A stretch of 34,324 bases of DNA, from IMG/VR virus record IMGVR_UViG_3300042896_000405, positions 1 through 34,324 of that record; one strand, written 5' to 3'. The translations under genes were made by a program, and so were the position numbers. A model generated the notes under the pieces. The model made no database searches. It saw nothing but the letters and a program-made list of their open reading frames with translations, and had not been told where the DNA came from. The stretch comes from a virus. This document shows positions 10,101-30,321 of the stretch, piece by piece (position 1 is the stretch's first letter; every line of letters begins with the position of its first letter).

Positions 10101-11786
10101 TTATAGGGTGTTTAAACCACTAACATATACTTTACCATAGAATTCAGGGCGTAACATCTTCTTAGCGAAACGAGTCAACAAACCTTTACGTGGGGTGAAA
10201 GTGTTTGGATCGTAGATAAGAGGAGTCATGATTAATGGAATGTATGGAGCAAATACAGCACCTGCTTCTAAGAATTGCTTACCACGGAAACCTACTAAGA
10301 TAGTATTTTCAGTCATGTAAGGGTTCTTATAAACAGTGTAACGGCTGTTGAATTGACCAGCTTTCTGTACACCAAACGCGTATTCCATATCTTCAGCACC
10401 GTTAGCATTAGCTGCGAATCCTGGGATAGATTCTAAGATAGTAGAGATAGTTGGAGATACTACCATGAAGTTAGCACCACCACGAAGAGTCAACTGGTGA
10501 ATCTTGTTACTAATCTTGTTAATCTTAGTACCAAGAGTTTGGAACCAAGCACCTTGAGTATTGTAGAATCCTAAAGTAGCAGCTGTAGATGTAGGAGCTG
10601 TAGGGTCTAAAGCTACGTTATTAACTGCTGACCAGTACTCAGTATTACTTGCAGGAGCATCTTCAATCAACATATCTAAGATTTCTAAATCGATCTCTAA
10701 AGAGATATACTCAGACATGATGTTTGTTAATTCAGCTTCAGCATCTAAGTTTTGGTAAGCATTCAAATCTTGTGCGAATTCAGGTGTCCAAGCAGCTTTT
10801 AACTTTTTAGTTTTAGCTGTAATAGCTTGAGATTGCATTGAGATGTTAATCTCTGGGATTTGAATTGTAGTAGCGTTAGCAGCTACAGTTTGAGCGTTAG
10901 GGTTTGAGAAAGTTCCTGCAGCAGTATCTTCAAAATCACCGCGGTAACGATCAACAGTAGCTTTATTGTAATAAAGAGTAGGACCAGCACTAGTATATGG
11001 AGTAGCAGATGCGCTAACTACAAAAGTGATTTGACCTGTAGATGAGTCATATGTTGTGAAAGCTGGTAAGAATTCAACGAAAGCTGTACCACCAGTTATT
11101 ACAAATCCACGTACAGCATCAGTATCCATATAAGCATCAAAATAACTAGCAGATACTTTTGCAGTATATAATTTGCTAGCAGCAGCAGAAGCTGAATAAG
11201 CTGAGTCAAATCCTACAGTAGCCCAAGTAGCAGCTCCAATAACAGTCAAAGTTTGAGCATTTGAACCGGAAGCTCCAAGTGAAGCTGAGAATTGGTTAGT
11301 AGAGTAAGTGAAACGGCCAGCACCATATAAACCACCTGCAGCAGCTGGGGTTGAGAATGGGGTTGTGCTAGAAGCATTACGATTACCATACAAAGAGTTA
11401 CCTGAAGTGAATGGGTTCTTAGTAGTACCATATTGGAAATCTAAGAAGAATACAAGACCAGAAGGTAAGTTCATTGGTTGAACGCTAACGAATTCTTTCG
11501 CAGCGATTTGACCAAATACCTTACGTACTAATGGTAATGCAATACCAGCCCAGTTTTCACCATTTGTTCCAGAAGTGAAATAAGAGTTAGTTCCAGTAGC
11601 AGAAGATTCTACTACTAATTGCTTTGCTTGGTTTTCCAACATCAAAGCCATGTTGTTACGGTTGACATCCTCACCCAAACCTTCCAAAAGGCCGGTTTTA
11701 ACCCACTTGTTAGCTAAACGCGCAGCGTCGCTTTGAAGTGATTTCCATGGGTTTGCAGATTCAACTAATGATTGAATTGTTTCCAT
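10101..11786 (-). CDS. 23: Major capsid protein, gp23-like
   Basis: This 561-residue protein (T4 gp23 has 521) builds the icosahedral head. The gp23 landmark VSVQPMNLPSGLVFFLDFQY is at about residues 99-118, matching T4 VQPMNSPTGQVFAL. MLENQAKQLVVESSATGT at 49-66 corresponds to the end of the T4 N-terminal delta domain, so gp21-type cleavage near Glu60 is predicted (T4 cuts after Glu65). The C-terminal MLRPEFYGKVYVSGLNTL also fits the family. Ala/Ser/Thr-rich stretches in the middle are probably the insertion domain. It lies 46 nt downstream of the scaffold gene in one unit and ends at a strong terminator. No Shine-Dalgarno is present; the leader is A/T only. Confidence 0.96.
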   Translation of the reverse strand: METIQSLVESANPWKSLQSDAARLANKWVKTGLLEGLGEDVNRNNMALMLENQAKQLVVESSATGTNSYFTSGTNGENWAGIALPLVRKVFGQIAAKEFVSVQPMNLPSGLVFFLDFQYGTTKNPFTSGNSLYGNRNASSTTPFSTPAAAGGLYGAGRFTYSTNQFSASLGASGSNAQTLTVIGAATWATVGFDSAYSASAAASKLYTAKVSASYFDAYMDTDAVRGFVITGGTAFVEFLPAFTTYDSSTGQITFVVSASATPYTSAGPTLYYNKATVDRYRGDFEDTAAGTFSNPNAQTVAANATTIQIPEINISMQSQAITAKTKKLKAAWTPEFAQDLNAYQNLDAEAELTNIMSEYISLEIDLEILDMLIEDAPASNTEYWSAVNNVALDPTAPTSTAATLGFYNTQGAWFQTLGTKINKISNKIHQLTLRGGANFMVVSPTISTILESIPGFAANANGAEDMEYAFGVQKAGQFNSRYTVYKNPYMTENTILVGFRGKQFLEAGAVFAPYIPLIMTPLIYDPNTFTPRKGLLTRFAKKMLRPEFYGKVYVSGLNTL

Positions 11787-11832: not shown

Positions 11833-12960
11833 TTATTTAAGTCCGGCTAATATTCTCATACGAGCAAAAGCATCATTTACTTCAATAATTGGTTGTTTTG
11901 TTTCAACAGGAGCACTAATAGTTTTAGAAGCTGATCCTAATGATTCTTTAATAGTGTTCTTTTTAGCAATACTTAATGCTTTTAAAGACTCAGTTAAAGT
12001 TTCAAATACTAATTTCACTTCTTTTACTGTTTCTGCTTTGTCAAATGTGTTTAAAACCTTTACTTTTTCAGATTCTGTAAGGTTTTTAGCTTTGAAAATC
12101 TTGTTAGTGTAAAGAAGTTTAGCGTTTAAAAGATTTACTTCGTTAAGTTCAGAACGTAATTCAGCAATTGTTTCTTCCATTTCAGTAGTATCAGCTGTTT
12201 CAGCTACTTTTTTATCACCAATTTTAGCTTTAAGTTTTTGGAAAAGTTCCTTAACTTTAGGTGCTAAAAACATTCCTCCAATTGCAGCAACAGGAAGAGC
12301 AGCAGCTATCATGTTTACTTGTTCTGGGGAGATATTCAACATATCGGCGATTTTAAGAGCTATATCAACTCCTGTTCCTGCTTCATATCCTTCTTCTACT
12401 TCTTTTTCTTTTTCCATCTCTTCAATTTCTGCTAAAAGTTCATCTAATTCAACTTCTTCATCTTCAACTTCTTCTTCATCTTCCATATCACCCATGTCAT
12501 CCATGTCTTCTATGTCAGTTTCTTCTTCTTCAAAATTTTCACCGGCTTCAACATTACCAGCTTCAATTTCTTGACGTAATACTTTTAGAATAAGGTCTTC
12601 AAGTTCTTCATCAGACATTTCTTCAAGCATTAAATCTTCTTTCATCATCTTAACATCATCAGCGTCTACATCACCATCACCATCTATATCACGGTTTGGT
12701 TGTTCTTCAGCGTATTCGTCAACTTTGTCAAGTTCAGCTAGGATTTCTTCAAGATTAAAATCTTCATCCACGCCGTAGTTTTCGTCATACATCTCTTCTT
12801 TAACATCATCTCCCTCTTCTAACTCGTTTAGCTTTTCAGCAAACATAGCGGTAAGTTGTGGAGTGAATGCTTCTTCAAGAGCTGCTTTTGCATTCGCGAT
12901 AGCTGTTTCTTTGATAGTTTTAGCCTCAGCGATTGCTTCTTTGAGCATTTCTCTGTTCAT
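11833..12960 (-). CDS. 22: Prohead core scaffolding protein, gp22-like
   Basis: This 375-residue protein is very acidic and helical, and precedes the capsid gene as T4 gene 22 does. Residues 1-50 form an Ala/Glu helix. An EF-hand-like calcium loop, DIDGDGDVDADD, is at 91-102, and a Glu/Asp tract at 141-190. A short hydrophobic segment, VNMIAAALPVAAIGG, is at 215-229. The helical C-terminal region NLLNAKLLYTNKIFKAKNL and FDKAETVKEVKLVFETLTE is typical of gp22-like scaffolds. It ends in DAFARMRILAGLK, echoed in the 27282-28181 protein. A GAGGA sequence 8 nt before the ATG is one of the few Shine-Dalgarno-like sites in the window. It would form the core and be degraded by gp21. Confidence 0.82.
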   Translation of the reverse strand: MNREMLKEAIAEAKTIKETAIANAKAALEEAFTPQLTAMFAEKLNELEEGDDVKEEMYDENYGVDEDFNLEEILAELDKVDEYAEEQPNRDIDGDGDVDADDVKMMKEDLMLEEMSDEELEDLILKVLRQEIEAGNVEAGENFEEEETDIEDMDDMGDMEDEEEVEDEEVELDELLAEIEEMEKEKEVEEGYEAGTGVDIALKIADMLNISPEQVNMIAAALPVAAIGGMFLAPKVKELFQKLKAKIGDKKVAETADTTEMEETIAELRSELNEVNLLNAKLLYTNKIFKAKNLTESEKVKVLNTFDKAETVKEVKLVFETLTESLKALSIAKKNTIKESLGSASKTISAPVETKQPIIEVNDAFARMRILAGLK

Positions 12961-13161: not shown

Positions 13162-13773
13162 TTAAAATATTGGGCAAGTTCCATTAGCACATAATATATC
13201 TGTGATAACAGAATTTACTTTTATATACTTATTAGTTTGTTGAGGTAATTTAGATTCATTCATCATACCTACTTCTTTCATATATGAACCTGGGTTTGAA
13301 GGAGTTGAGACAAAGTCCCAACATAATAATTCAAAGTCATCTTGTACTTCCATTAAATCACCCATTTGTTTTAATGAGCCCATACCACGAGATGAAACAC
13401 CTACTGGTATATTATTTTGAAATAATGCTGATAAGATATTGCCTGATGGTGTGGGTAATATTTCAATTGCTCCCATTACATGGTCTCCATCCCACCAAAT
13501 CTTTTTAATATTATGAGATACATTTTTTAAATTAATAATAGATGAATCTGGGTGGTCTAATTCACCTAATGCTCTATTAGCATTGACACTATCCATGTAT
13601 TTTTTGATCTCACGTTCCCACAATTCTCTTGAATAGTAACGACCGTTACCATTTTTTACTTCACAAGTAGCTAAAATACCTTCAACAAGTGGATTACCTG
13701 TTGATGATTTTCCTTCAATTAATTTTGAAGGTTTAGCTGTGAAATATTGAGTTTCAATTAATACTTGTTTCAT
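13162..13773 (-). CDS. 21: Prohead protease, gp21-like
   Basis: This 203-residue serine protease of the phage prohead (U9/S78-like) class would cleave scaffold, capsid delta domain and core proteins during maturation. The substrate-pocket strand NGRYYSRELWEREI is at 43-56. The catalytic His lies in GELDHPD at 70-76 (His74), and the catalytic Ser in GVSSRGMGS at 125-133 (Ser127 or Ser128). LLCWDFVSTPSNPGSY follows, as in related proteases. It lies 1 nt after the preceding core-type gene and before a terminator, in the T4 order portal, core, protease, scaffold, capsid. Its size is close to T4 gp21 (212 residues). Confidence 0.93.
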   Translation of the reverse strand: MKQVLIETQYFTAKPSKLIEGKSSTGNPLVEGILATCEVKNGNGRYYSRELWEREIKKYMDSVNANRALGELDHPDSSIINLKNVSHNIKKIWWDGDHVMGAIEILPTPSGNILSALFQNNIPVGVSSRGMGSLKQMGDLMEVQDDFELLCWDFVSTPSNPGSYMKEVGMMNESKLPQQTNKYIKVNSVITDILCANGTCPIF

Positions 13774-13774
13774 A

Positions 13775-15115
13775 TTATTTTCCCGCTGGTGTTACATCTT
13801 CTGATCCAGGTCTAGGTTGAAAACCTGCTCCTTTAAGAGTTGCTATAGATTGAGGATTAGTAGCTACTACTGTTGCTTTAGTTTTAGTATTTTGAAGAAT
13901 CATTTCATCTACCTCTTTTTCTTTCTTTTTCTTACCATTTAACTTAGCTTTAGCACCTTCTAATTTCTTAATCTCAGATTGAAGTTCTTTAACTTTTTTA
14001 ATATTATCTTCGTTACCTTCTAATTCAGTTAAAGTTTCTAATGCTTTGATTTGTTTTTTACGTTTTACAATTTCATTTGTAATACGTCTTTCCATTACTT
14101 TTTTCTTAGCATCTTCACCTTCATTCTTAATAGAATCCATATCTAATGCTTCAGATACAGGTTTTTTAGTTTCATCTACACTATCTACATCACCTGTTTT
14201 TAATTTTTTCTTCCACTCTTTATCTAATTTTTTAAGTTCTTCTTTTTTCTTTTTAGCTTCTTCTTTTTCTTTATCTTTATCTTTAGTTTCAGATAATGAT
14301 GGTTTAACAGCACTAATAGGAACTTCTTTATATATTTTACCATCTTCTGTTTTAATAGTATATGAAAATGGTTGAGATTCATCTTTATCTGTTTTAGCAT
14401 GCATTGACACAGCTATAATAAATACTGGTTTGCCCTCATATGTTCCCATTTCACCTGCTTTTAAAGGTGGTGTTTCAGATAATACTTCTTTAATTAAAAG
14501 ATGAATTTGAGAACGTAATACTGATTCTTTTAAATCACCATATCCTGATGATTTATATTTACCTTTAGGTTCTTTCGGTTCACCTAATCCAGGTGCTTCA
14601 GTTGTGTATCCTACACCTTTAACTCCAAATTGACCATTTTTAACATAATAAGAAATATCTTTAGCTAAATTTTTAGCTACAATGGCTCTTAATTCTTCAA
14701 CATGTTTGTCAGCGTTTTTAGGATCTCTTAGTTCAGTGTAGTATCCTTTTAAGAATTCTTCACCAAAAACATTATCATAATTTTTCTCGTCTTTATAATC
14801 ATAACCACGAGTAGCCATATCAGTAACTTCTTTAGTAGTTTCTTTTTCTTCAGCTTTAGCTTCTTTTTCTTCTTTAAGAGTATTCATATTCTCTTTAAAG
14901 ATAGAATGCCAATCTTGTTTTTTACCTGATGTCACTAAACCACCTATACCTTCACTGATGATGCTTCTATTTTTAAGAATAGTTACAGTATCTTCAAATG
15001 TGTTAACAGGTGATAACATATCTGGGAATAAGCGAAATGCTGATTTTAAGAAATATGCTTTATTTCCTTTACCTTCTTTAATAAGGTTATACTGTTCTTG
15101 TAGTGTTTTTTCCAT
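13775..15115 (-). CDS. Charged, helical core-type protein, unknown
   Basis: This 446-residue protein is strongly charged (Lys/Glu), with long helical stretches at about 270-310 and 335-400 that include KDKEKEEAKKKKEELKKLDK. An internal peptide, LRSQIHLLIKEVLSE at 200-214, resembles the N-terminal peptide of several neighbours. A small globular region, MGTYEGKPVFIIAVSMHAKT, follows at about 222-241. No enzyme motif is seen. It lies between portal and protease, where T4 encodes the core proteins gp67 and gp68, with 1-2 nt gaps on both sides. A prohead-core role is inferred from position and composition. Confidence 0.6.
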   Translation of the reverse strand: MEKTLQEQYNLIKEGKGNKAYFLKSAFRLFPDMLSPVNTFEDTVTILKNRSIISEGIGGLVTSGKKQDWHSIFKENMNTLKEEKEAKAEEKETTKEVTDMATRGYDYKDEKNYDNVFGEEFLKGYYTELRDPKNADKHVEELRAIVAKNLAKDISYYVKNGQFGVKGVGYTTEAPGLGEPKEPKGKYKSSGYGDLKESVLRSQIHLLIKEVLSETPPLKAGEMGTYEGKPVFIIAVSMHAKTDKDESQPFSYTIKTEDGKIYKEVPISAVKPSLSETKDKDKEKEEAKKKKEELKKLDKEWKKKLKTGDVDSVDETKKPVSEALDMDSIKNEGEDAKKKVMERRITNEIVKRKKQIKALETLTELEGNEDNIKKVKELQSEIKKLEGAKAKLNGKKKKEKEVDEMILQNTKTKATVVATNPQSIATLKGAGFQPRPGSEDVTPAGK

Positions 15116-15117
15116 TT

Positions 15118-15621
15118 TTAATCTTTAAATAATTCAATTACATCATCTAATAAAGAACTAGCTAAATCTGTTCCATATAATGATTTCATTTCTGGGTTAT
15201 CTCTATATGAATTTATAGTCTTTAGTTTAGCGTTTCTAATTAGCTCAATAAGTTCTTTTAGTTTAGCTGCTAATGTGTTAAAATCACCTACTTTATCAGC
15301 TATATATTTTTTAGTCTCGTCATCAGTTTGTAACGACGATAAATATGATTCTATATCAAAGCTAGGTGTATCTTCTTCCCACAATTGTTTTACTTCAATA
15401 CCTTTAGCAGCTTTATTTAATTTCTTTTTATTAACAGGTTTATATCCTAATTTGTAATAATAAATATGTTCAGCTCCTTTAGCTCCTTTTTTAGGATTAA
15501 AAGCAAATGGAGTAGCATAGTTAGCACCTGAGCCAGCTGTGAAGCCAGAACCTGTTCCAGTAGCACTCATTTCATCTAAGTGCTTTTTAACTATCTCTCT
15601 TATTCTATCCTTTAAGTTCAT
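15118..15621 (-). CDS. Core-type protein with capsid-like cleavage site, unknown
   Basis: This 167-residue protein starts with an amphipathic helix, NLKDRIREIVKKHLDEM. It continues with SATGTGSGFTAG at 19-30. The capsid protein has SATGTNSYFTSG at 62-73, right after its predicted gp21 cleavage point, so 9 of 12 positions agree. The rest is helical and charged (KVGDFNTLAAKLKELIELI). It overlaps the gene before by 4 nt (ATGA) and leads the next by 2 nt. I infer that it is packaged in the prohead and cut after Glu17. The biochemical role of the mature part is unknown. Confidence 0.62.
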   Translation of the reverse strand: MNLKDRIREIVKKHLDEMSATGTGSGFTAGSGANYATPFAFNPKKGAKGAEHIYYYKLGYKPVNKKKLNKAAKGIEVKQLWEEDTPSFDIESYLSSLQTDDETKKYIADKVGDFNTLAAKLKELIELIRNAKLKTINSYRDNPEMKSLYGTDLASSLLDDVIELFKD

Positions 15622-16475
15622 TTCGCTGATTCTAATTCTTCTAACAATTGATAATATTGAAGAAGATTTACTAAGTTATCATCATTTACTTTATCAGTTT
15701 TACCTAATGAAGGTAAAATATTTATAACTTCTTGGATTTTAATTTGAATAGCTTTGTCAGTTACTTTTTTATTTAAAGCAACTAATGCTTCTTTAATTTC
15801 GTTTACTTTAGTATTATAGAATTCTTTTAATTTAGGAGTACTATCAATACTATTAATAAATTCTTTTAGTACTGATTTTTGGTTTTCATTCAAATCAGCA
15901 TACTTGTCATTGAATTTTTCAAGTAATACTCTATAAGTTAAAACACGAATATCTTTATCTTGATGTTTGAATTCCTCTAAGATAGTTTCTTTAACTTCTT
16001 TTTTATCAATAGTAGTTTTAGTTAAATACTCTAAAAGAACTGTTTTATTTTCTATAATCTGATTAGGATCAGCTAAGTTTTCACTGTTGTATACCTCTAA
16101 TAATGTAAATAAAGCCGCTTGTGCTTTATAGTTAGGTAGTTTAGTTTTAAAAAACTCTTCAAGATTATAATTAGACTTAATTTCTTTAATTAAATTATAT
16201 TTTTGTCTCTTAAGAGCTGATCTGTTTAAATGTTTAGAACTTTCAACTAATGTTGATACAACCATGTCTGCTTTAGCTTCACTAATGTTTCCTACATGTT
16301 TAAAGAAGCTTTCATATAGTCTATATTCTTTACCTAATTCAGATTTAGTAAAATATTTCTTTAAGATAGTAGAAGCTGGGGAGTCTTTACCTGATAAAGT
16401 GTCTGCTGTTATTTGTCTAACAAGCAATTCAAAGAGTATTCCCGGATTTTTGTACTTCGAGTGTTTAATATTCAC
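15618..16475 (-). CDS. Conserved core-type helical protein, GTG start
   Basis: This 285-residue protein probably starts at GTG 16475 (NIKHSKYKNPGILFELLVRQ follows the initiator). The frame is open to an ATG at 16535, but that start would place the promoter-like element at 16492-16501 inside the gene, so GTG is preferred. The N-terminal KNPGILFELLVRQITADTL is a pattern I recognise from proteins next to the portal in environmental T4-like phages. The rest is Lys/Glu/Leu-rich helices with repeat-like spacing (FKHQDKDIRVLTYRVLLEKF). It sits between portal and core-type genes. A head-assembly or core role is inferred. Confidence 0.65.
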   Translation of the reverse strand: MNIKHSKYKNPGILFELLVRQITADTLSGKDSPASTILKKYFTKSELGKEYRLYESFFKHVGNISEAKADMVVSTLVESSKHLNRSALKRQKYNLIKEIKSNYNLEEFFKTKLPNYKAQAALFTLLEVYNSENLADPNQIIENKTVLLEYLTKTTIDKKEVKETILEEFKHQDKDIRVLTYRVLLEKFNDKYADLNENQKSVLKEFINSIDSTPKLKEFYNTKVNEIKEALVALNKKVTDKAIQIKIQEVINILPSLGKTDKVNDDNLVNLLQYYQLLEELESAK

Positions 16476-16491
16476 TTTGGTATAATTTTTA

Positions 16492-16501
16492 TTATAAATA
16501 T
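16492..16501 (-). promoter_or_regulatory. Promoter-like ATATTTATAA element before 15618-16475 gene
   Basis: The coding strand reads ATATTTATAA, 16 nt before the GTG at 16475, the normal spacing. This is the main reason for preferring the GTG. Confidence 0.62.
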
Positions 16502-16512
16502 ATGAAAAGTTT

Positions 16513-18396
16513 TTATTCTCGTATTTGAGACTCATCTAATAACGAGGAATTGTCTTTCTTTACTGATATTTTTTTATCTAGATTTTCAAATAATGGTTTA
16601 TTTTTAAGCATATTTTCTAAAGCTAATGGTGAACCACCTTTAAAATTATTTCTAAGTGATTTATCTTCACCAGTATTATCTCCATTTTTCATACCTTTGT
16701 TACCTAATCTATCAGTACCAAATGCATTCTTTTGAGTTCCAATATTTGATGCTTTTTCTTCAGGACGACCTAATTTTAAATCTTCATCATATCCATCTGG
16801 TAGTGAGCCCATTCTGCTAGCTCCATATAATGTTGCTAAGTCGTGAGGTGTACCATATGATTTACCTGTTTCTAATGGATCATTACCTTCATTTTCAATT
16901 TGTTTCATTCTAAAGATACGCTTTTGATCTTCAGCTATTAAATCTCTATATTCATCAAATTGATCTTCACTTAAGTGGAATATATTATCATAAATCCAGT
17001 CTGTAGGTAAAATTTTAGTTTCAATAATACTACGAGCTAAGTCTACTTTTTCTTTCATTAAAGCAATTCTTTCTTGATCATAAATGATAGAAGGAGTAGT
17101 TAATGATAATTCAAAGTTAGTTAATGCTTCATTTCTATATCCTTGTGTATATAAATGCACTAACGCGATTTTATACAACTCAGATAATATAATACGTTGA
17201 ATACGATCAATTGTACGAGCGAATCGAATATCCTCAGCGGCTAATGTTGCTTTACCAGTTAAATCTTTTTCATATCCCATGAATGCTTTAGGTACTTTTA
17301 AAGCAGCAAATAATTTATCTCTTAAATAAACTACATCTTCAATTGCTGTATAATCCATACCTTTAGTAGGTTCAATCTTAGTAGCACTATCATTACCTCT
17401 TACTGGTATATAGAAGTCTTCTAAAATATTTTGTTGGTTATACTTCATGTTATACTCACCACTTTGAGGATCAATAAATGGAGTTTTCTTCATTGTATTG
17501 ATAGTCTTCTGCATAAAGTTTTCTACCTCATTTGGTGGAATAGAACCAACGTTAATATAGAAAATACGTTTTTCTGGGGCGCGAACAATACGGTGGATCA
17601 ACATTGCGTCTTCCATTAAGATGTATTGTTTGTATAATTTACGAGCAGGCTCTAAATATGATCTTCCATATGGTAAATAGTTCACATCAGTAATTAATCT
17701 GAAGTGAGCCATTTCATAGTTGTCAAAATAAATATTTTTGTCTTCTTTTCTAGATGATTGAGTACCTTGACCTCCAATACCGTAATAACCTGATCCACCC
17801 GCATAACCATCAGGAGAGAAAGCAAATCTTATTTCAGCTGGTTTTTTAGGATCGTAGTTTTCTTGTCTTTCAATGTGGTAGGCAGTGTAAGGTATAACAT
17901 TATATACACCAAATTTTTCAGCAATTTCTAATTTTAAGAAGAAATCACCATACTTACACATTTGACGAATCCAAGACCATAGATTAAACTCAATGTTTAA
18001 TACATCATAGAATAAATTATATAAAATCTTTTGTGTATCTTCATCACTACTTCTAATTTGGAGTACTTCTCCCATATCATTTTTAAGAGTGCTCTCATCA
18101 GCTATAATATCTAAAGCAGAAGAAATGATTGCATCTGTATCCATAGCATCATAATCAGAATAAATCTGAGTGCGAAGATATTTCCAGTTAATGTTTAGTT
18201 GAGCACCATAAAGTGAGGTACTATTACTTGAATATATACGATTGTATCTGTCAACTAAAGAGTTTGTTTGATATTCACCTGTCATCTGGATGCTGTTAAC
18301 ATCCATTACTTTTAATTCATTTCCTCCAGCATTTCTGATTATTACATCAGTTGCAAATAATCGCTGTAGACGTGAAAATACACTAGTATCTGCCAT
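16513..18396 (-). CDS. 20: Portal protein, gp20-like
   Basis: This 627-residue portal forms the dodecameric ring through which DNA is packaged. Family landmarks are DYDAMDTDAIISSALDIIAD at about residue 77-96, EFNLWSWIRQMCKYGDFFLK at about 136-155, and IHRIVRAPEKRIFYINVGSI near 260. VPKAFMGYEKDLTGKATLA appears near 360-380. These match T4 gp20 in order. It is longer than T4 gp20 (524 residues). The extra length is a low-complexity C-terminal tail after about residue 520, rich in Gly, Asn and Lys. It lies directly after the terminase gene with its own promoter-like element. Confidence 0.95.
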   Translation of the reverse strand: MADTSVFSRLQRLFATDVIIRNAGGNELKVMDVNSIQMTGEYQTNSLVDRYNRIYSSNSTSLYGAQLNINWKYLRTQIYSDYDAMDTDAIISSALDIIADESTLKNDMGEVLQIRSSDEDTQKILYNLFYDVLNIEFNLWSWIRQMCKYGDFFLKLEIAEKFGVYNVIPYTAYHIERQENYDPKKPAEIRFAFSPDGYAGGSGYYGIGGQGTQSSRKEDKNIYFDNYEMAHFRLITDVNYLPYGRSYLEPARKLYKQYILMEDAMLIHRIVRAPEKRIFYINVGSIPPNEVENFMQKTINTMKKTPFIDPQSGEYNMKYNQQNILEDFYIPVRGNDSATKIEPTKGMDYTAIEDVVYLRDKLFAALKVPKAFMGYEKDLTGKATLAAEDIRFARTIDRIQRIILSELYKIALVHLYTQGYRNEALTNFELSLTTPSIIYDQERIALMKEKVDLARSIIETKILPTDWIYDNIFHLSEDQFDEYRDLIAEDQKRIFRMKQIENEGNDPLETGKSYGTPHDLATLYGASRMGSLPDGYDEDLKLGRPEEKASNIGTQKNAFGTDRLGNKGMKNGDNTGEDKSLRNNFKGGSPLALENMLKNKPLFENLDKKISVKKDNSSLLDESQIRE

Positions 18397-26546: not shown

Positions 26547-27140
26547 TTATTTATATTTCCATTTATATCCAAAAGCTGTTTTTTGCCTACCTAATATAGC
26601 ATCTTTTATCTGGGAGGTCAAATTTCCTTGCCTTTTCTTTGTTTCTTTTATCCATTCTGCCGCTTGTCCTTTACTTTCCCATTCTCTAATCAAATTGTTG
26701 TTTAAATCATACATTAACAGTGGTTTAGCTTGCTTACGTTTAGCTATTAACATATTTTGTTGATGTTCTTTAGTGAATGGTTTTAACTTACCTTTATTAC
26801 TATTACTTATTTTTTCTCTAACTTCATCTGTATAATACTGGGAGTGGTTCTGTAATGATGCTTTTATTTTAGCATTTCTTTCAGGAGATGATACCCATCC
26901 TGGGCCTCTACCCCCACCACCACTATTTTTATTTTCTAATTCAAATCCCCAAGATTTAAATAATTCAATATACCATGATTCCCAAAATTTCCACTCATTG
27001 TCATCTACACAATCTATTTCAATTATCTCACTATCTATTCTTTTATCTTTATGAGTATAAAAACGTTCTTTTATTTTTTGTAATGTTTTACCAACATAAA
27101 ATGGAACTCCATTTCTTTCTAATATATAAATTTTAGTCAT
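26547..27140 (-). CDS. GIY-YIG homing endonuclease with NUMOD motifs
   Basis: This 197-residue free-standing homing endonuclease has a divergent GIY-YIG core. KIYILERNGVPFYVGKT is at 3-19, Arg26 is the likely catalytic residue, and WESWYIELFKSWG at 53-65 holds the likely catalytic Glu. NUMOD3-like GKLKPFTKEHQQNM follows at about 116-129. The C-terminal NUMOD1-like region has LLMYDLNNNLIREWESKGQA at 140-159. It differs clearly from the endonuclease at 2263-2964. A promoter-like element is 9 nt upstream, and its stop lies at the start of the flavoprotein gene. Confidence 0.92.
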   Translation of the reverse strand: MTKIYILERNGVPFYVGKTLQKIKERFYTHKDKRIDSEIIEIDCVDDNEWKFWESWYIELFKSWGFELENKNSGGGGRGPGWVSSPERNAKIKASLQNHSQYYTDEVREKISNSNKGKLKPFTKEHQQNMLIAKRKQAKPLLMYDLNNNLIREWESKGQAAEWIKETKKRQGNLTSQIKDAILGRQKTAFGYKWKYK

Positions 27141-27281: not shown

Positions 27282-28181
27282 TTATGCTTGAGTTGTTTTT
27301 ACTTTAGTATCTACCTTTGCTAGTCTATAAAAATACCATACTCCTTTATTTTTATCATTATCTTGTTTAACAATATCTCCAGGATTTATAGCTCCTTGAA
27401 CTTGTTTAACAGTCCAATCTTTTTTAAGGACAGGCCCATTATAATCAGATAATTGAAATTTGTTTATAATAGATTCTGCTTTTTGAATTTGCTTTGGATT
27501 TACATATACTGTTAAAGTTTGAGTTTCAGGATTTTGAAAAACTTCAAATGCAACCGCTTTTGGATTAGTTTTAATAGTATTTAATTGCTCTGGGGTGAGA
27601 TTTTGGAATGTAATTAATGTATCAAATCCAGCTGCTTTAAAATTTTTATCTAGATCTTGTCCAAACGCTTTAATATCTTTATTTAAAGCTTCATTTAATT
27701 GATTCTCAATTAAACTTTTTTTTTGACGATATTGAGCTTCAGTAATTACTCCAGCCAATTTTTGCATTTTTAAGAATGACTCATTTAATGCTTCTTCAGT
27801 ATTTTCTTTTTCTAAATCCATTTCAGCCATTACATCTGTTTCATCAATAGGAGCATCAGTAGTTACTTCTTTTTCATCCTTAGGAGCAGATTTTTTAGCT
27901 TTTTTAGCTGCTTTCTTTTCAGCTATTCTTTCAAATTTAAGTTTAGCTTTCTTTAATTCTTTAATTTCGTTTTGAATTTCTTTAATTTTAGCTCCATCAA
28001 CCATTTCTTTCAATTCATCATTTTCATCAATGCGAGCTAATTTAGCTTCACGAGTGGCGATAGCTTCATCACATTTAGCAATACGAGCTTCCATAGCTGC
28101 ATTTTCAGCTGCGTCATCTATTTCTTTAATATACTCATTAATTGATTCACGAATAAGAGTACGTAAATTTTCTAATTTCAT
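27282..28181 (-). CDS. Putative head-internal protein with tag-like peptides, unknown
   Basis: This 299-residue protein begins with KLENLRTLIRESINEYIKEI, one of the shared amphipathic N-terminal peptides. A Lys/Ala/Glu helix follows to about residue 100 and an acidic linker to 130. NESFLKMQKLAGVITE at 133-148 resembles the last residues of the scaffold (DAFARMRILAGLK). The C-terminal half, with FDTLITFQNLTPEQLNTI and ETQTLTVYVNPKQIQKAESI, looks like a compact alpha/beta domain, not recognised. A promoter-like element lies 16 nt upstream and a terminator downstream. I infer that it is packaged in the prohead. Confidence 0.6.
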   Translation of the reverse strand: MKLENLRTLIRESINEYIKEIDDAAENAAMEARIAKCDEAIATREAKLARIDENDELKEMVDGAKIKEIQNEIKELKKAKLKFERIAEKKAAKKAKKSAPKDEKEVTTDAPIDETDVMAEMDLEKENTEEALNESFLKMQKLAGVITEAQYRQKKSLIENQLNEALNKDIKAFGQDLDKNFKAAGFDTLITFQNLTPEQLNTIKTNPKAVAFEVFQNPETQTLTVYVNPKQIQKAESIINKFQLSDYNGPVLKKDWTVKQVQGAINPGDIVKQDNDKNKGVWYFYRLAKVDTKVKTTQA

Positions 28182-28217: not shown

Positions 28218-28592
28218 TTAAACAGTTTTTTTCTCTATAGATTTATTTAATTTAAAGTTTCTAACACCTTTAATTGCTCTAATATCAGTAAATAGTTGTT
28301 GTAAATCTTCATCAGTAAACCCATTAGGATAAGGATGTGGATCTACTTTAATCTTAATTATTGTATAATAGTTAGGATTACTAAATGCTGATGTTTCACC
28401 TGATAAATCATAATCCTTACTTGATACAATTGTTACACCAGGTAATGATCTAATATCAGATAATATATCTTTTTGAGGACGTTCTTCAGTGTTAGTAAGA
28501 AGTAGCCCCTCAATATTATATTGAGTGGACTCTTCTTTTAAGATAAGTTGAAGTTCTTCTCTAATTATTTCTATTAAACGAGATCGTTTCAT
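28218..28592 (-). CDS. Small protein with tag-like N-terminus, unknown
   Basis: This 124-residue protein starts with KRSRLIEIIREELQLILKEE, the clearest copy of the shared peptide. The following domain alternates strands and helices (DIRSLPGVTIVSSKDYD, YYTIIKIKVDPHPYPNG, LFTDIRAIKGVRNFKL), which suggests a ferredoxin-like alpha/beta fold. Its two GV-ending helix/strand turns, LPGVTIV and IKGVRNF, look like an internal repeat. No active site is visible. It overlaps the preceding gene by 4 nt (ATGA), so it is part of the unit that begins at 32998. Confidence 0.6.
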   Translation of the reverse strand: MKRSRLIEIIREELQLILKEESTQYNIEGLLLTNTEERPQKDILSDIRSLPGVTIVSSKDYDLSGETSAFSNPNYYTIIKIKVDPHPYPNGFTDEDLQQLFTDIRAIKGVRNFKLNKSIEKKTV

Positions 28593-29953
28593 TTTTTGTT
28601 TATCTTCAATGTCAATGTACCATTACCTTTAATAACACGATGCCATTGTCCTTTTGGTATAAATATTGACTCATTTATAGAAGTTGGTAGTTGATCTTCT
28701 AATTGTATCTTCCAATCAGTTTCACCTATGATTTCAACAACACGATCTTCTCTGTCACGGTGCCATTTTAATTCAATTGGATCAATATTTTCATTAAACT
28801 CACGAATAATATATTCATCTGTGACTTCAAGATCTTTATATGGTTTAGATTCATTTAAACCAAAATCAGGTAAGTTGATATTATCTATATCATCATCATC
28901 TTCATCTTCAATATCAGGAGTTGGTTCCATATGATCTTCAGCCCAACGTTTTTGTGCTGGTGTTACTCTATTATTTAGTAGGTTTTCAATGAATTCAACA
29001 AACGCTTTAGCGTCATCTTCTCGATACACATTAGCTAAAAATAACTCAAATGATATTTTATTACGAACATTAGCATTATTATATAATGCTCTTAAATCAC
29101 TTAATATATGAGTACCTGTACCAAAGTCTTCTGGTTCATGTTCTAATTTATCTGTTGCCGCTACTGTGGCTTGGTTAGTAGAAATATCTTTAGTAAATCC
29201 TTGAAGTGAAACTATTTCGTATAATCCTTTAATAATTTCATGGACTAAAAATGGGAATACTAAACCTGTTGCTCTAATTTTTAAATTACCATCATCATCA
29301 AAGCTAGCATCTGATTCTCCACCTTTACCACCTGCACCTTTTGGGTTACCAGCTAACATAGCTAATAACATTGCTACAGCTTCTTTATCATAAAATATTC
29401 CAAATACTTTCTTTAATGTATCCCCATATTTAGAAACTGAGTCATCAAGATTTGTAACTACAGCACTATATCTTTGTAATAGATTATCATCTACATCATC
29501 TAAAAAATCCACAAATGGTTTTTCTAATGAACCATAGATTGATGCTCCTTGAGTAATAGCGTTAATAAGACGTCTTTTAGCTACTTCATCATTTTTAAGA
29601 TCAGGTTGATCTTCAGAAGGCATAGGTGTTTCTTCTTCCTCTTCTTTTCCTTTAGGGGGAGGAGGAGGTAATTGATCTTGCCCTAATGTAGCTTCAATCT
29701 CGATATTATATTCATCAATAATTGGATACATTTTTTTAACCATTTCTACAGCTAATTCTTCTAGTTGAGTCTTATATGGTGCTTCAGCTGACATTAATTG
29801 ACTAAGTAATACTTGAGATTTTTGCATTATCTTCATTAAAGAATCATTACCTAGTAATTTAGCTCTAGTTTCAGCGTTTCTTCTTTCAACACCAGACATT
29901 GTAGCTGGGTCTTTGAATATATCGCTATATTTCATTTCATGGAGTTTTTTCAT
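28589..29953 (-). CDS. Virion-associated protein with cupin-like C-terminus
   Basis: This 454-residue protein is not recognised as a whole. It has a helical N-terminal part and a Pro/Glu linker (PPPPPKGKEEEEE) at about 96-108. A helical middle follows, then an acidic linker, DIEDEDDDDIDN, near 345-356. Residues 391-454 form a small beta domain with KWHRDREDRVVEI at 396-408 and FIPKGQWHRVIKGNGTL at 431-447. That pattern resembles small cupins with HRD and HR pairs, seen in other T4-like phage proteins. His398, His438 and Glu/Asp could bind a metal. It overlaps both neighbours by 4 nt. Confidence 0.6.
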   Translation of the reverse strand: MKKLHEMKYSDIFKDPATMSGVERRNAETRAKLLGNDSLMKIMQKSQVLLSQLMSAEAPYKTQLEELAVEMVKKMYPIIDEYNIEIEATLGQDQLPPPPPKGKEEEEETPMPSEDQPDLKNDEVAKRRLINAITQGASIYGSLEKPFVDFLDDVDDNLLQRYSAVVTNLDDSVSKYGDTLKKVFGIFYDKEAVAMLLAMLAGNPKGAGGKGGESDASFDDDGNLKIRATGLVFPFLVHEIIKGLYEIVSLQGFTKDISTNQATVAATDKLEHEPEDFGTGTHILSDLRALYNNANVRNKISFELFLANVYREDDAKAFVEFIENLLNNRVTPAQKRWAEDHMEPTPDIEDEDDDDIDNINLPDFGLNESKPYKDLEVTDEYIIREFNENIDPIELKWHRDREDRVVEIIGETDWKIQLEDQLPTSINESIFIPKGQWHRVIKGNGTLTLKINKK

Positions 29954-30321
29954 TTCTTTAGTTTTTTATACTTATTCATGATTCCCTTTACTAAAGTAGC
30001 TGCTTTATCTTCATTTGTTTTAGCTTTAGCTGGTCTTTCTTTAGGAGTTTTACCGGGTGTTGGAGTTAAACCTGGGTTACCTGGTTTTGTTTTAGGTGTA
30101 GTTTTAGGTGGTGCTTCTTTTGTTTCTGACTCAGAAACAGTTTCAGCATCTTTAAATCCTCTATCATATCCATCTCTTAAACCATCAGTATACCCACGAC
30201 GGTAATCTTCAGATTCTTGATCTAAATCTAATGACTTAGTCTTACCAGGATAATCAAATCCTAATTCTTTAATAGAGGCTAACTCTTCACGAATAATTTC
30301 TTTTAATTTATTGATTTTCAT
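29950..30321 (-). CDS. Low-complexity protein with tag-like N-terminus, unknown
   Basis: This 123-residue protein begins with KINKLKEIIREELASIKEL, the shared peptide. YRRGYTDGLRDGYDRGFKDA follows at about residues 40-59, a Gly/Tyr/Arg-rich repeat often seen in phage and membrane proteins. A Pro/Thr/Lys-rich disordered stretch comes next, and the protein ends in a basic helix (GIMNKYKKLKK). A compact fold is unlikely. It overlaps its upstream neighbour by 14 nt and its downstream neighbour by 4 nt. Packaging into the head is inferred from the N-terminal peptide. Confidence 0.55.
   Translation of the reverse strand: MKINKLKEIIREELASIKELGFDYPGKTKSLDLDQESEDYRRGYTDGLRDGYDRGFKDAETVSESETKEAPPKTTPKTKPGNPGLTPTPGKTPKERPAKAKTNEDKAATLVKGIMNKYKKLKK

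Follow-up and report, generated by a model that had tools for sequence, protein, structure and literature searches.

A prohead-core-type protein in a clade of T4-like phages repeats the capsid segment behind the predicted maturation cut

Head maturation in T4 and the corresponding gene cluster

The head genes of phage T4 lie in the order gp20, gp67, gp68, gp21, gp22, gp23. Gp22 is a substrate of the gp21 protease, and the capsid targeting sequences of the internal proteins IPII and IPIII, about 10 residues long, are likewise cut by gp21. The protease is reported to need only L/I-x-E in its substrates (PMC9026906), and small peptides are reported as the degradation products of gp67 and gp68 (PMC9958956). 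Residues 66-91 of gp23* constitute the "N-fist", which makes inter-capsomer contacts; it becomes ordered only upon expansion, and it is disordered in the five gp23* subunits that face the portal (PMC7136217, PMC9958956). In SPN3US the prohead protease gp245 cuts capsid and internal head proteins after x-x-E, as defined by mass spectrometry, and its cleavage-site logo has preferences only at P4-P1 and P1' (PMC10052503). How certain proteins localise in the scaffolding core of T4 is, in the words of a review, still mysterious (PMC9958956).

The window, that is, the whole stretch of 34,324 nucleotides analysed here, is a 34-kb virus fragment. Its minus strand encodes, in order, the portal gp20 (16513-18396; phrog_213, E=4e-58), a conserved 305-aa protein (p305, 15618-16535), a 167-aa prohead-core-type protein (p167, 15118-15621), a 446-aa core-region protein (p446, 13775-15115), the gp21 prohead protease (13162-13773), an acidic scaffold in the gp22 position (11833-12960, assigned by position and composition), the major capsid protein of the gp23 family (10101-11786) and PhoH. 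The capsid and p167 ORFs are both on this strand; the plus strand at their coordinates has many stops. The protease is a Peptidase_S77 (PF03420, E=7e-28; phrog_207, E=4e-55) that keeps the ELDHP and GVSSRG motifs in a by-eye comparison with T4 gp21, and with an S77 protease gene in the head cluster the prohead protease system is of the T4 type. The capsid matches PF07068 (E=8e-72) as well as T4 gp23 structures. The window also has GIY-YIG/NUMOD-type homing endonuclease-like ORFs at 2263-2964 and 26547-27140, of which the former lies within the structural region.

Comparing the two gene orders puts p167, between p305 and p446 and upstream of gp21, in the place of two T4 prohead core proteins, and related phages have it at the same gene position. 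Like gp67 and gp68, it is a small protein encoded between the portal and gp21 genes; no sequence or profile homology to either is found (Pfam, PHROG), and gene position is what is held in common. It resembles gp68, which has such sites, in carrying an [LIVM]xE near its N-terminus. Unlike gp67 and gp68, with their small peptides, p167 has one conserved predicted site that would leave a larger product. P167 itself has no match in Pfam or PHROG, no confident fold match (Foldseek) and no tblastn match in 50,697 phage records; a structure search with a longer member of its family returned uncharacterised viral proteins only (one hit at E=3e-5) and no PDB match.

The predicted junction and the segment behind it

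The capsid reads ...ENQAKQLVVE60|S61-SATGTNSYFTSG-TNGENWAGIALPLVRK, the bar marking the predicted scissile bond and SATGTNSYFTSG occupying residues 62-73; p167 reads MNLKDRIREIVKKHLDE, ending in E17, then M18-SATGTGSGFTAG-SGANYATPFAF, with SATGTGSGFTAG at residues 19-30. Nine of these 12 positions are identical, and in capsid and p167 alike the identity starts one residue past the predicted scissile bond. Coordinates, residue numbers, sequences and the count of nine had been given in a preliminary description of this DNA, and all were correct on recheck; translated in six frames, the window contains the SATGT-S-FT-G pattern that it had drawn from them at two places. The first 17 residues of p167 (15571-15621) form a predicted helix, a putative targeting propeptide that ends in LDE. 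There follow the N-fist-like segment MSATGTGSGFTAGSGAN (residues 18-34, 15520-15570), predicted to be disordered; the conserved anchor YATPFAF (residues 35-41, 15499-15519), in the position of WAGIALP in the capsid; and a mostly helical C-terminal part (residues 42-167, 15121-15498). In the capsid, residues 1-60 (11607-11786) are the predicted propeptide, ending in VVE, and residues 61-78, SSATGTNSYFTSGTNGEN (11553-11606), the predicted mature N-terminus.

Relatives came from two viral scans that yielded 94 loci, two of which (L001 and L002) are fragments of the window; since resemblance to its capsid and core protein was the basis of selection, the loci describe one clade and say little about others. 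The predicted P1 is E in 51 of 51 p167 homologues and the predicted P3 is L, I, V or M in 48 of them (L or I in 38), against a background rate for [LIVM]xE of 2.3% per tripeptide. What lies upstream of this site differs widely, from the short helix of the window to a domain of about 100-160 residues in many other members. A small internal protein with a short N-terminal peptide ending in hydrophobic-x-E recalls IPII and IPIII, but this is resemblance only: the sequence is different, and so is the long upstream domain of those other members. Among the capsids, [VIL]xE stands at the junction in 81 of 81 distinct sequences, with E invariant at P1 and P3 mostly V, which is a relaxed form of the T4 (L/I)-x-E motif. 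Judged by these alignments, the conserved (L/I)-x-E to be expected of a T4-type gp21 substrate is present.

Structural models are compatible with a cut at this point. In that of the window's p167 (without Met1, its numbering thus one lower), a helix at about residues 3-18 ends at LDE, the repeat has a pLDDT below 50, and a long helix spans about residues 101-141; in the AlphaFold model of the L034 homologue, a confident domain covers residues ~10-135, residue 136 is the last of LDE and disorder sets in at 138. The modelled linker at the LDE junction is what a protease site would need.

One invariant E column aligns the capsids with those of immuto, Mel-JY01 and RM378, with E65 of T4 gp23 and with E10 of T4 gp24, and E60 is well placed in it as the capsid cut point; homology and the position of this maturation Glu together mark the capsid as a member of the gp23 family. 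The alignment also pairs capsid residues 61-78 with T4 gp23 66-90, which makes the segment after the cleavage Glu the likely equivalent of T4 residues 66-91. The capsid thus resembles gp23/gp23* in its PF07068 domain, in the column of its cleavage Glu and, by alignment, in its N-fist segment; it differs in that the segment has 18 residues, of different sequence, rather than the 25 of the T4 N-fist. It differs further in that a non-capsid protein repeats the segment here, while T4 gp67, gp68 and gp22 have no comparable match to it; we found no report of a capsid-mimicking mature N-terminus for T4 internal proteins.

The preliminary description had proposed that both proteins are matured at hydrophobic-x-E. 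This part of its reading holds up: an S77 protease is encoded in the cluster, the [LIVM]-x-E junction is kept in nearly all homologues, and the predicted processing of capsid and p167 is well supported by that conservation. For dozens of uncultured phages, predicted maturation cleavage sites can in this way be placed in the capsid and in a head gene that lacks annotation. The other part, that the repeat is a shared maturation site, does not suffice as the full story: the similarity lies on the prime side, spans about 20 residues and, as described below, varies along with the capsid body but not with gp21.

The repeat's extent is best seen in the consensus sequences, xSxTGxGxxFTxGxGxxYATPxAF for the core segment and xSxTGxGxxFTxGxGE(Q/N)WAGxALP for the capsid segment. 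Profiles of the two find each other with best cross scores of 27-29 bits, against 5-7 bits for the best unrelated ORF, and no other motif-bearing protein in the loci exceeds about 7 bits; in the window, neither the scaffold nor p446 has the repeat. A joint profile, built from both families, was searched in 14 larger records (12 uncultured ones, immuto and Mel-JY01). Core and capsid genes were both found in nine of the 12, records of 163 and 170 kb included; the capsid alone scored in the uncultured records of L052, L061 and L084, and neither gene scored in immuto or Mel-JY01. Two weak extra hits (10 and 4 bits) turned up in one 54-kb record, and no convincing third motif-bearing gene in any of the 14. 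In the core proteins of T4, KVP40 and two cyanophages the repeat was not seen.

Nor is the match conserved in every homologue; the preliminary description had named such a loss as evidence against its reading, and in part it is seen. The segment is short or degenerate in 7 of the 51 homologues, in Flavobacterium phage immuto (Flavobacterium sp. LMO8; remnant LEE|MSTTGAVGG) and in Mel-JY01 (MNE|ENVTGNVDG), the similarity not being significant in either of these two phages; carrying the mimic is therefore not obligatory. Immuto is the closest isolate found, and the search turned up no isolate with the long repeat. As far as sampled, the repeat is a feature of one T4-like phage clade that is not strictly required there.

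Co-variation of the two segments

A phage's capsid segment resembles the core segment of the same phage more than it resembles those of other phages: similarity is 0.477 for own pairs against 0.302±0.018 after permutation, and none of 20,000 permutations was as high. The core segments in that test were trimmed by hand; repeated on untrimmed core proteins, with capsid windows fixed at 24 residues, it gave 53.6 against 37.6±1.6, and two other capsid windows gave no signal in this form of the test (p=0.17 and 0.89). The core and capsid segments are, for example, STIASNSGFTSGGEGEN and NEIASNSYYTSGGQGEN in L039, SGGTATFNPGTGAN and DGGTASFTPGTGNN in L065, and in L079 SSNVGTGAQ and SANVGTGEQ, with a shared insertion.

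Relatedness was controlled in three ways, by partial Mantel tests, by permutation within clusters and by tree-node contrasts. The partial correlation of the two segments is r=0.294 (p=0.0002) beyond capsid body, gp21 and p305, r=0.507 in the 44 long-arm phages and r=0.491 beyond six proteins, with p<=0.0003 in all such tests. Permuting within 20 close clusters leaves 0.477 against 0.438±0.010, with 0 of 5,000 permutations as high. Tree-node contrasts are positive at 36 nodes and negative at 6; those for control segments are not significant. The closest sister pairs ("cherries") taken alone are evenly split (6 positive, 6 negative, 2 ties), so the signal stems from deeper splits in the tree. 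That the two copies change in parallel from phage to phage suggests a common fitting site for them on the capsid shell.

Could two low-complexity linkers simply have come to look alike? The segments are indeed rich in Gly, Ser and Thr, and that of the core protein is predicted to be disordered. When capsid and p167 are shuffled, however, their best ungapped 12-mer match reaches nine in 0 of 300 shuffles (the maximum is 8), and permutations, tree contrasts, negative controls and the two-place hits in large genomes speak in the same sense. Coincidence is scarcely credible on this evidence, and chance or low complexity as the source of the match is ruled out by the shuffles, the permutation, the controls and the co-variation tests. 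Among the 36 window proteins, 4 of 630 pairs reach 9/12; the three besides capsid and p167 read as homing-endonuclease-type, as a shared N-terminal IREEL peptide and as Gly/Ser-rich sequence.

Within-phage resemblance might also arise if gene conversion or recurrent duplication copied the segment from one gene to the other, with no binding function attached. This would account for shared insertions such as that in L079 and for a small excess in the use of the same codon at identical residues (0.495 in own pairs, 0.435 in cross pairs). Yet at identical residues 246 of 499 codons agree where 226.5 are expected from codon usage alone, and the similarity is confined to the segment and its anchor. 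The within-phage resemblance is mostly at the protein level and leaves room for rare old conversion; copying of this kind is a quite improbable account of the repeat, and as main cause it is rejected, codon identity being near expectation.

With five other proteins controlled, the core arm follows the capsid body (r=0.232, p=0.0025). It has no significant residual signal with gp21, the gp22 scaffold, p446 or p305, others controlled; its trends with gp20 (p=0.086) and gp22 (p=0.15) are weak and fall short of significance. The capsid arm, other proteins controlled, co-varies with p305 and gp20. Under the same control, gp21 distance predicts neither arm (r=-0.217 and -0.045), and co-evolution with the protease is rejected as the source of the co-variation, gp21 leaving no residual correlation.

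What the new N-termini may bind

The main rival explanation takes the repeat to be an extended protease site: the gp21 of this clade would read the prime side of its substrates, and both would retain the post-cleavage sequence on that account, which widens the reading of the preliminary description. In both families the repeat does start at the predicted scissile bond, and S at P2', T at P4' and G at P5' are common to them past the cut (P2' and P4'-P5' being strongly shared), and the SPN3US protease prefers Ser at P1' (PMC10052503). Its logo has no extended prime-side similarity beyond that Ser, however, and T4 gp21 reportedly makes do with the short motif. The shared stretch of about 20 residues is long for such a site; the window's scaffold and gp21 itself are without the repeat, even though the scaffold's T4 counterpart is cut; and gp21 distance is uninformative for both arms, although a binding patch on gp21 may escape a whole-protein distance. 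We regard an extended site as rather unlikely.

Next in line is a shared prohead partner (scaffold, portal or another core protein) bound before or during maturation, the two segments being two copies of one docking peptide. Such a partner would explain the co-variation and the position of p167 in the core, and the capsid arm's correlation with p305 and gp20 is of the kind it predicts. The core arm, for its part, lacks significant co-variation with gp22, p446, p305 or gp20, and with both segments beginning at the predicted cleavage point, a function after the cut is the better fit. This explanation seems to us unlikely, and more so than an extended site.

A cleavage site alone is insufficient for a co-varying repeat of about 20 residues, which is better explained, as we read the sequences, by something that both new N-termini bind. 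A similarity on the prime side, in two gene families only, that follows the capsid body and not gp21 looks like a shared structural segment exposed by the cut, the N-fist equivalent, more than a mere shared cut site. The core segment tracks significantly only the capsid body, and the segment is the N-fist equivalent; we therefore prefer to regard it as an N-fist mimic. That both proteins undergo a gp21-type cut, and that the processed core protein thereby shows a mimic that docks on the capsid lattice, is quite possible, though put forward tentatively. A bolder version, in which the protease unmasks a mimic that plugs N-fist sites of the lattice, for example those unfilled around the portal, and that co-evolves with the capsid throughout a large clade, is also possible and is offered with a little more reserve.

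The proposed course of events is as follows. Inside the prohead a gp21-type protease would cut the capsid after VVE60 and p167 after LDE17; the N-terminal helix of p167, as long as it is uncut, would serve as a core-targeting peptide. Both proteins would gain a like new N-terminus, xSxTGxGxxFTxGxGE(N/Q)(W/Y)A. The capsid's would dock, as the equivalent of the gp23* N-fist, across subunits of neighbouring capsomers; that of the core protein would sit in N-fist-type docking sites on capsid subunits and tether the processed protein to the shell, perhaps at places without a natural N-fist, such as subunits corresponding to the five portal-facing ones of T4 may be. The computed support consists of the conserved junction, the equivalence by alignment to the T4 cut site and N-fist, the restriction of the repeat to two families in the searched records, and the co-variation with the capsid; that the cut takes place, and that the processed protein stays in the virion and docks, we infer. 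The weak point of the mimic is topology: by analogy with T4, the N-fist site would be present solely on the outer face of the expanded shell, and p167 would be internal.

A core protein with a hidden copy of the mature capsid N-terminus would explain, for one clade and in concrete terms that can be tested, how such proteins are localised. It would also furnish a sequence rule for spotting them: a co-varying N-fist segment after hydrophobic-x-E.

Some lesser observations concern the p167 family and its N-terminal peptides. The core segments of L003 and L012 differ, yet their capsid arms are one residue apart, which counts against the mimic; the two core proteins have near-identical C-terminal parts and differ at about residues 25-80, and the L012 version carries NGEN like its own capsid, a pattern suggestive of a module swap. 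L037, L039, L055, L066 and other p167 homologues contain a second module, (G/A/D)PGATLGPGPKAGPxGVKDNxYVKxFxYKLV, that often comes after hydrophobic-x-E and may serve as another place of cleavage. In L055, L056, L058, L065, L071, L076, L079, L087 and L090 two separate adjoining ORFs take the place of the p167 gene, one with the motif and one with the helical C-terminal part. In T4 gp21 (L101), residues 117-138, IEGDHGPGDKLAANIRAGWIPG, give a local match to the gp23* N-terminus (score 40, with 0 of 200 shuffles as high); it is absent in KVP40 and is taken as probable chance. Finally, an N-terminal peptide of the kind MKxxxLxxIIREExxxx(L/I)xE is common to unrelated minus-strand ORFs of the window (27282-28181, 28218-28592 and 29950-30321), and peptides like it occur in the L102 ORFs starting at 10966 and 11615 and in L005, L006 and L010. 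Internally it appears 0 times in 9588 aa of window proteins and 5 times in 424,372 aa of other loci, and it resembles a capsid-targeting propeptide.
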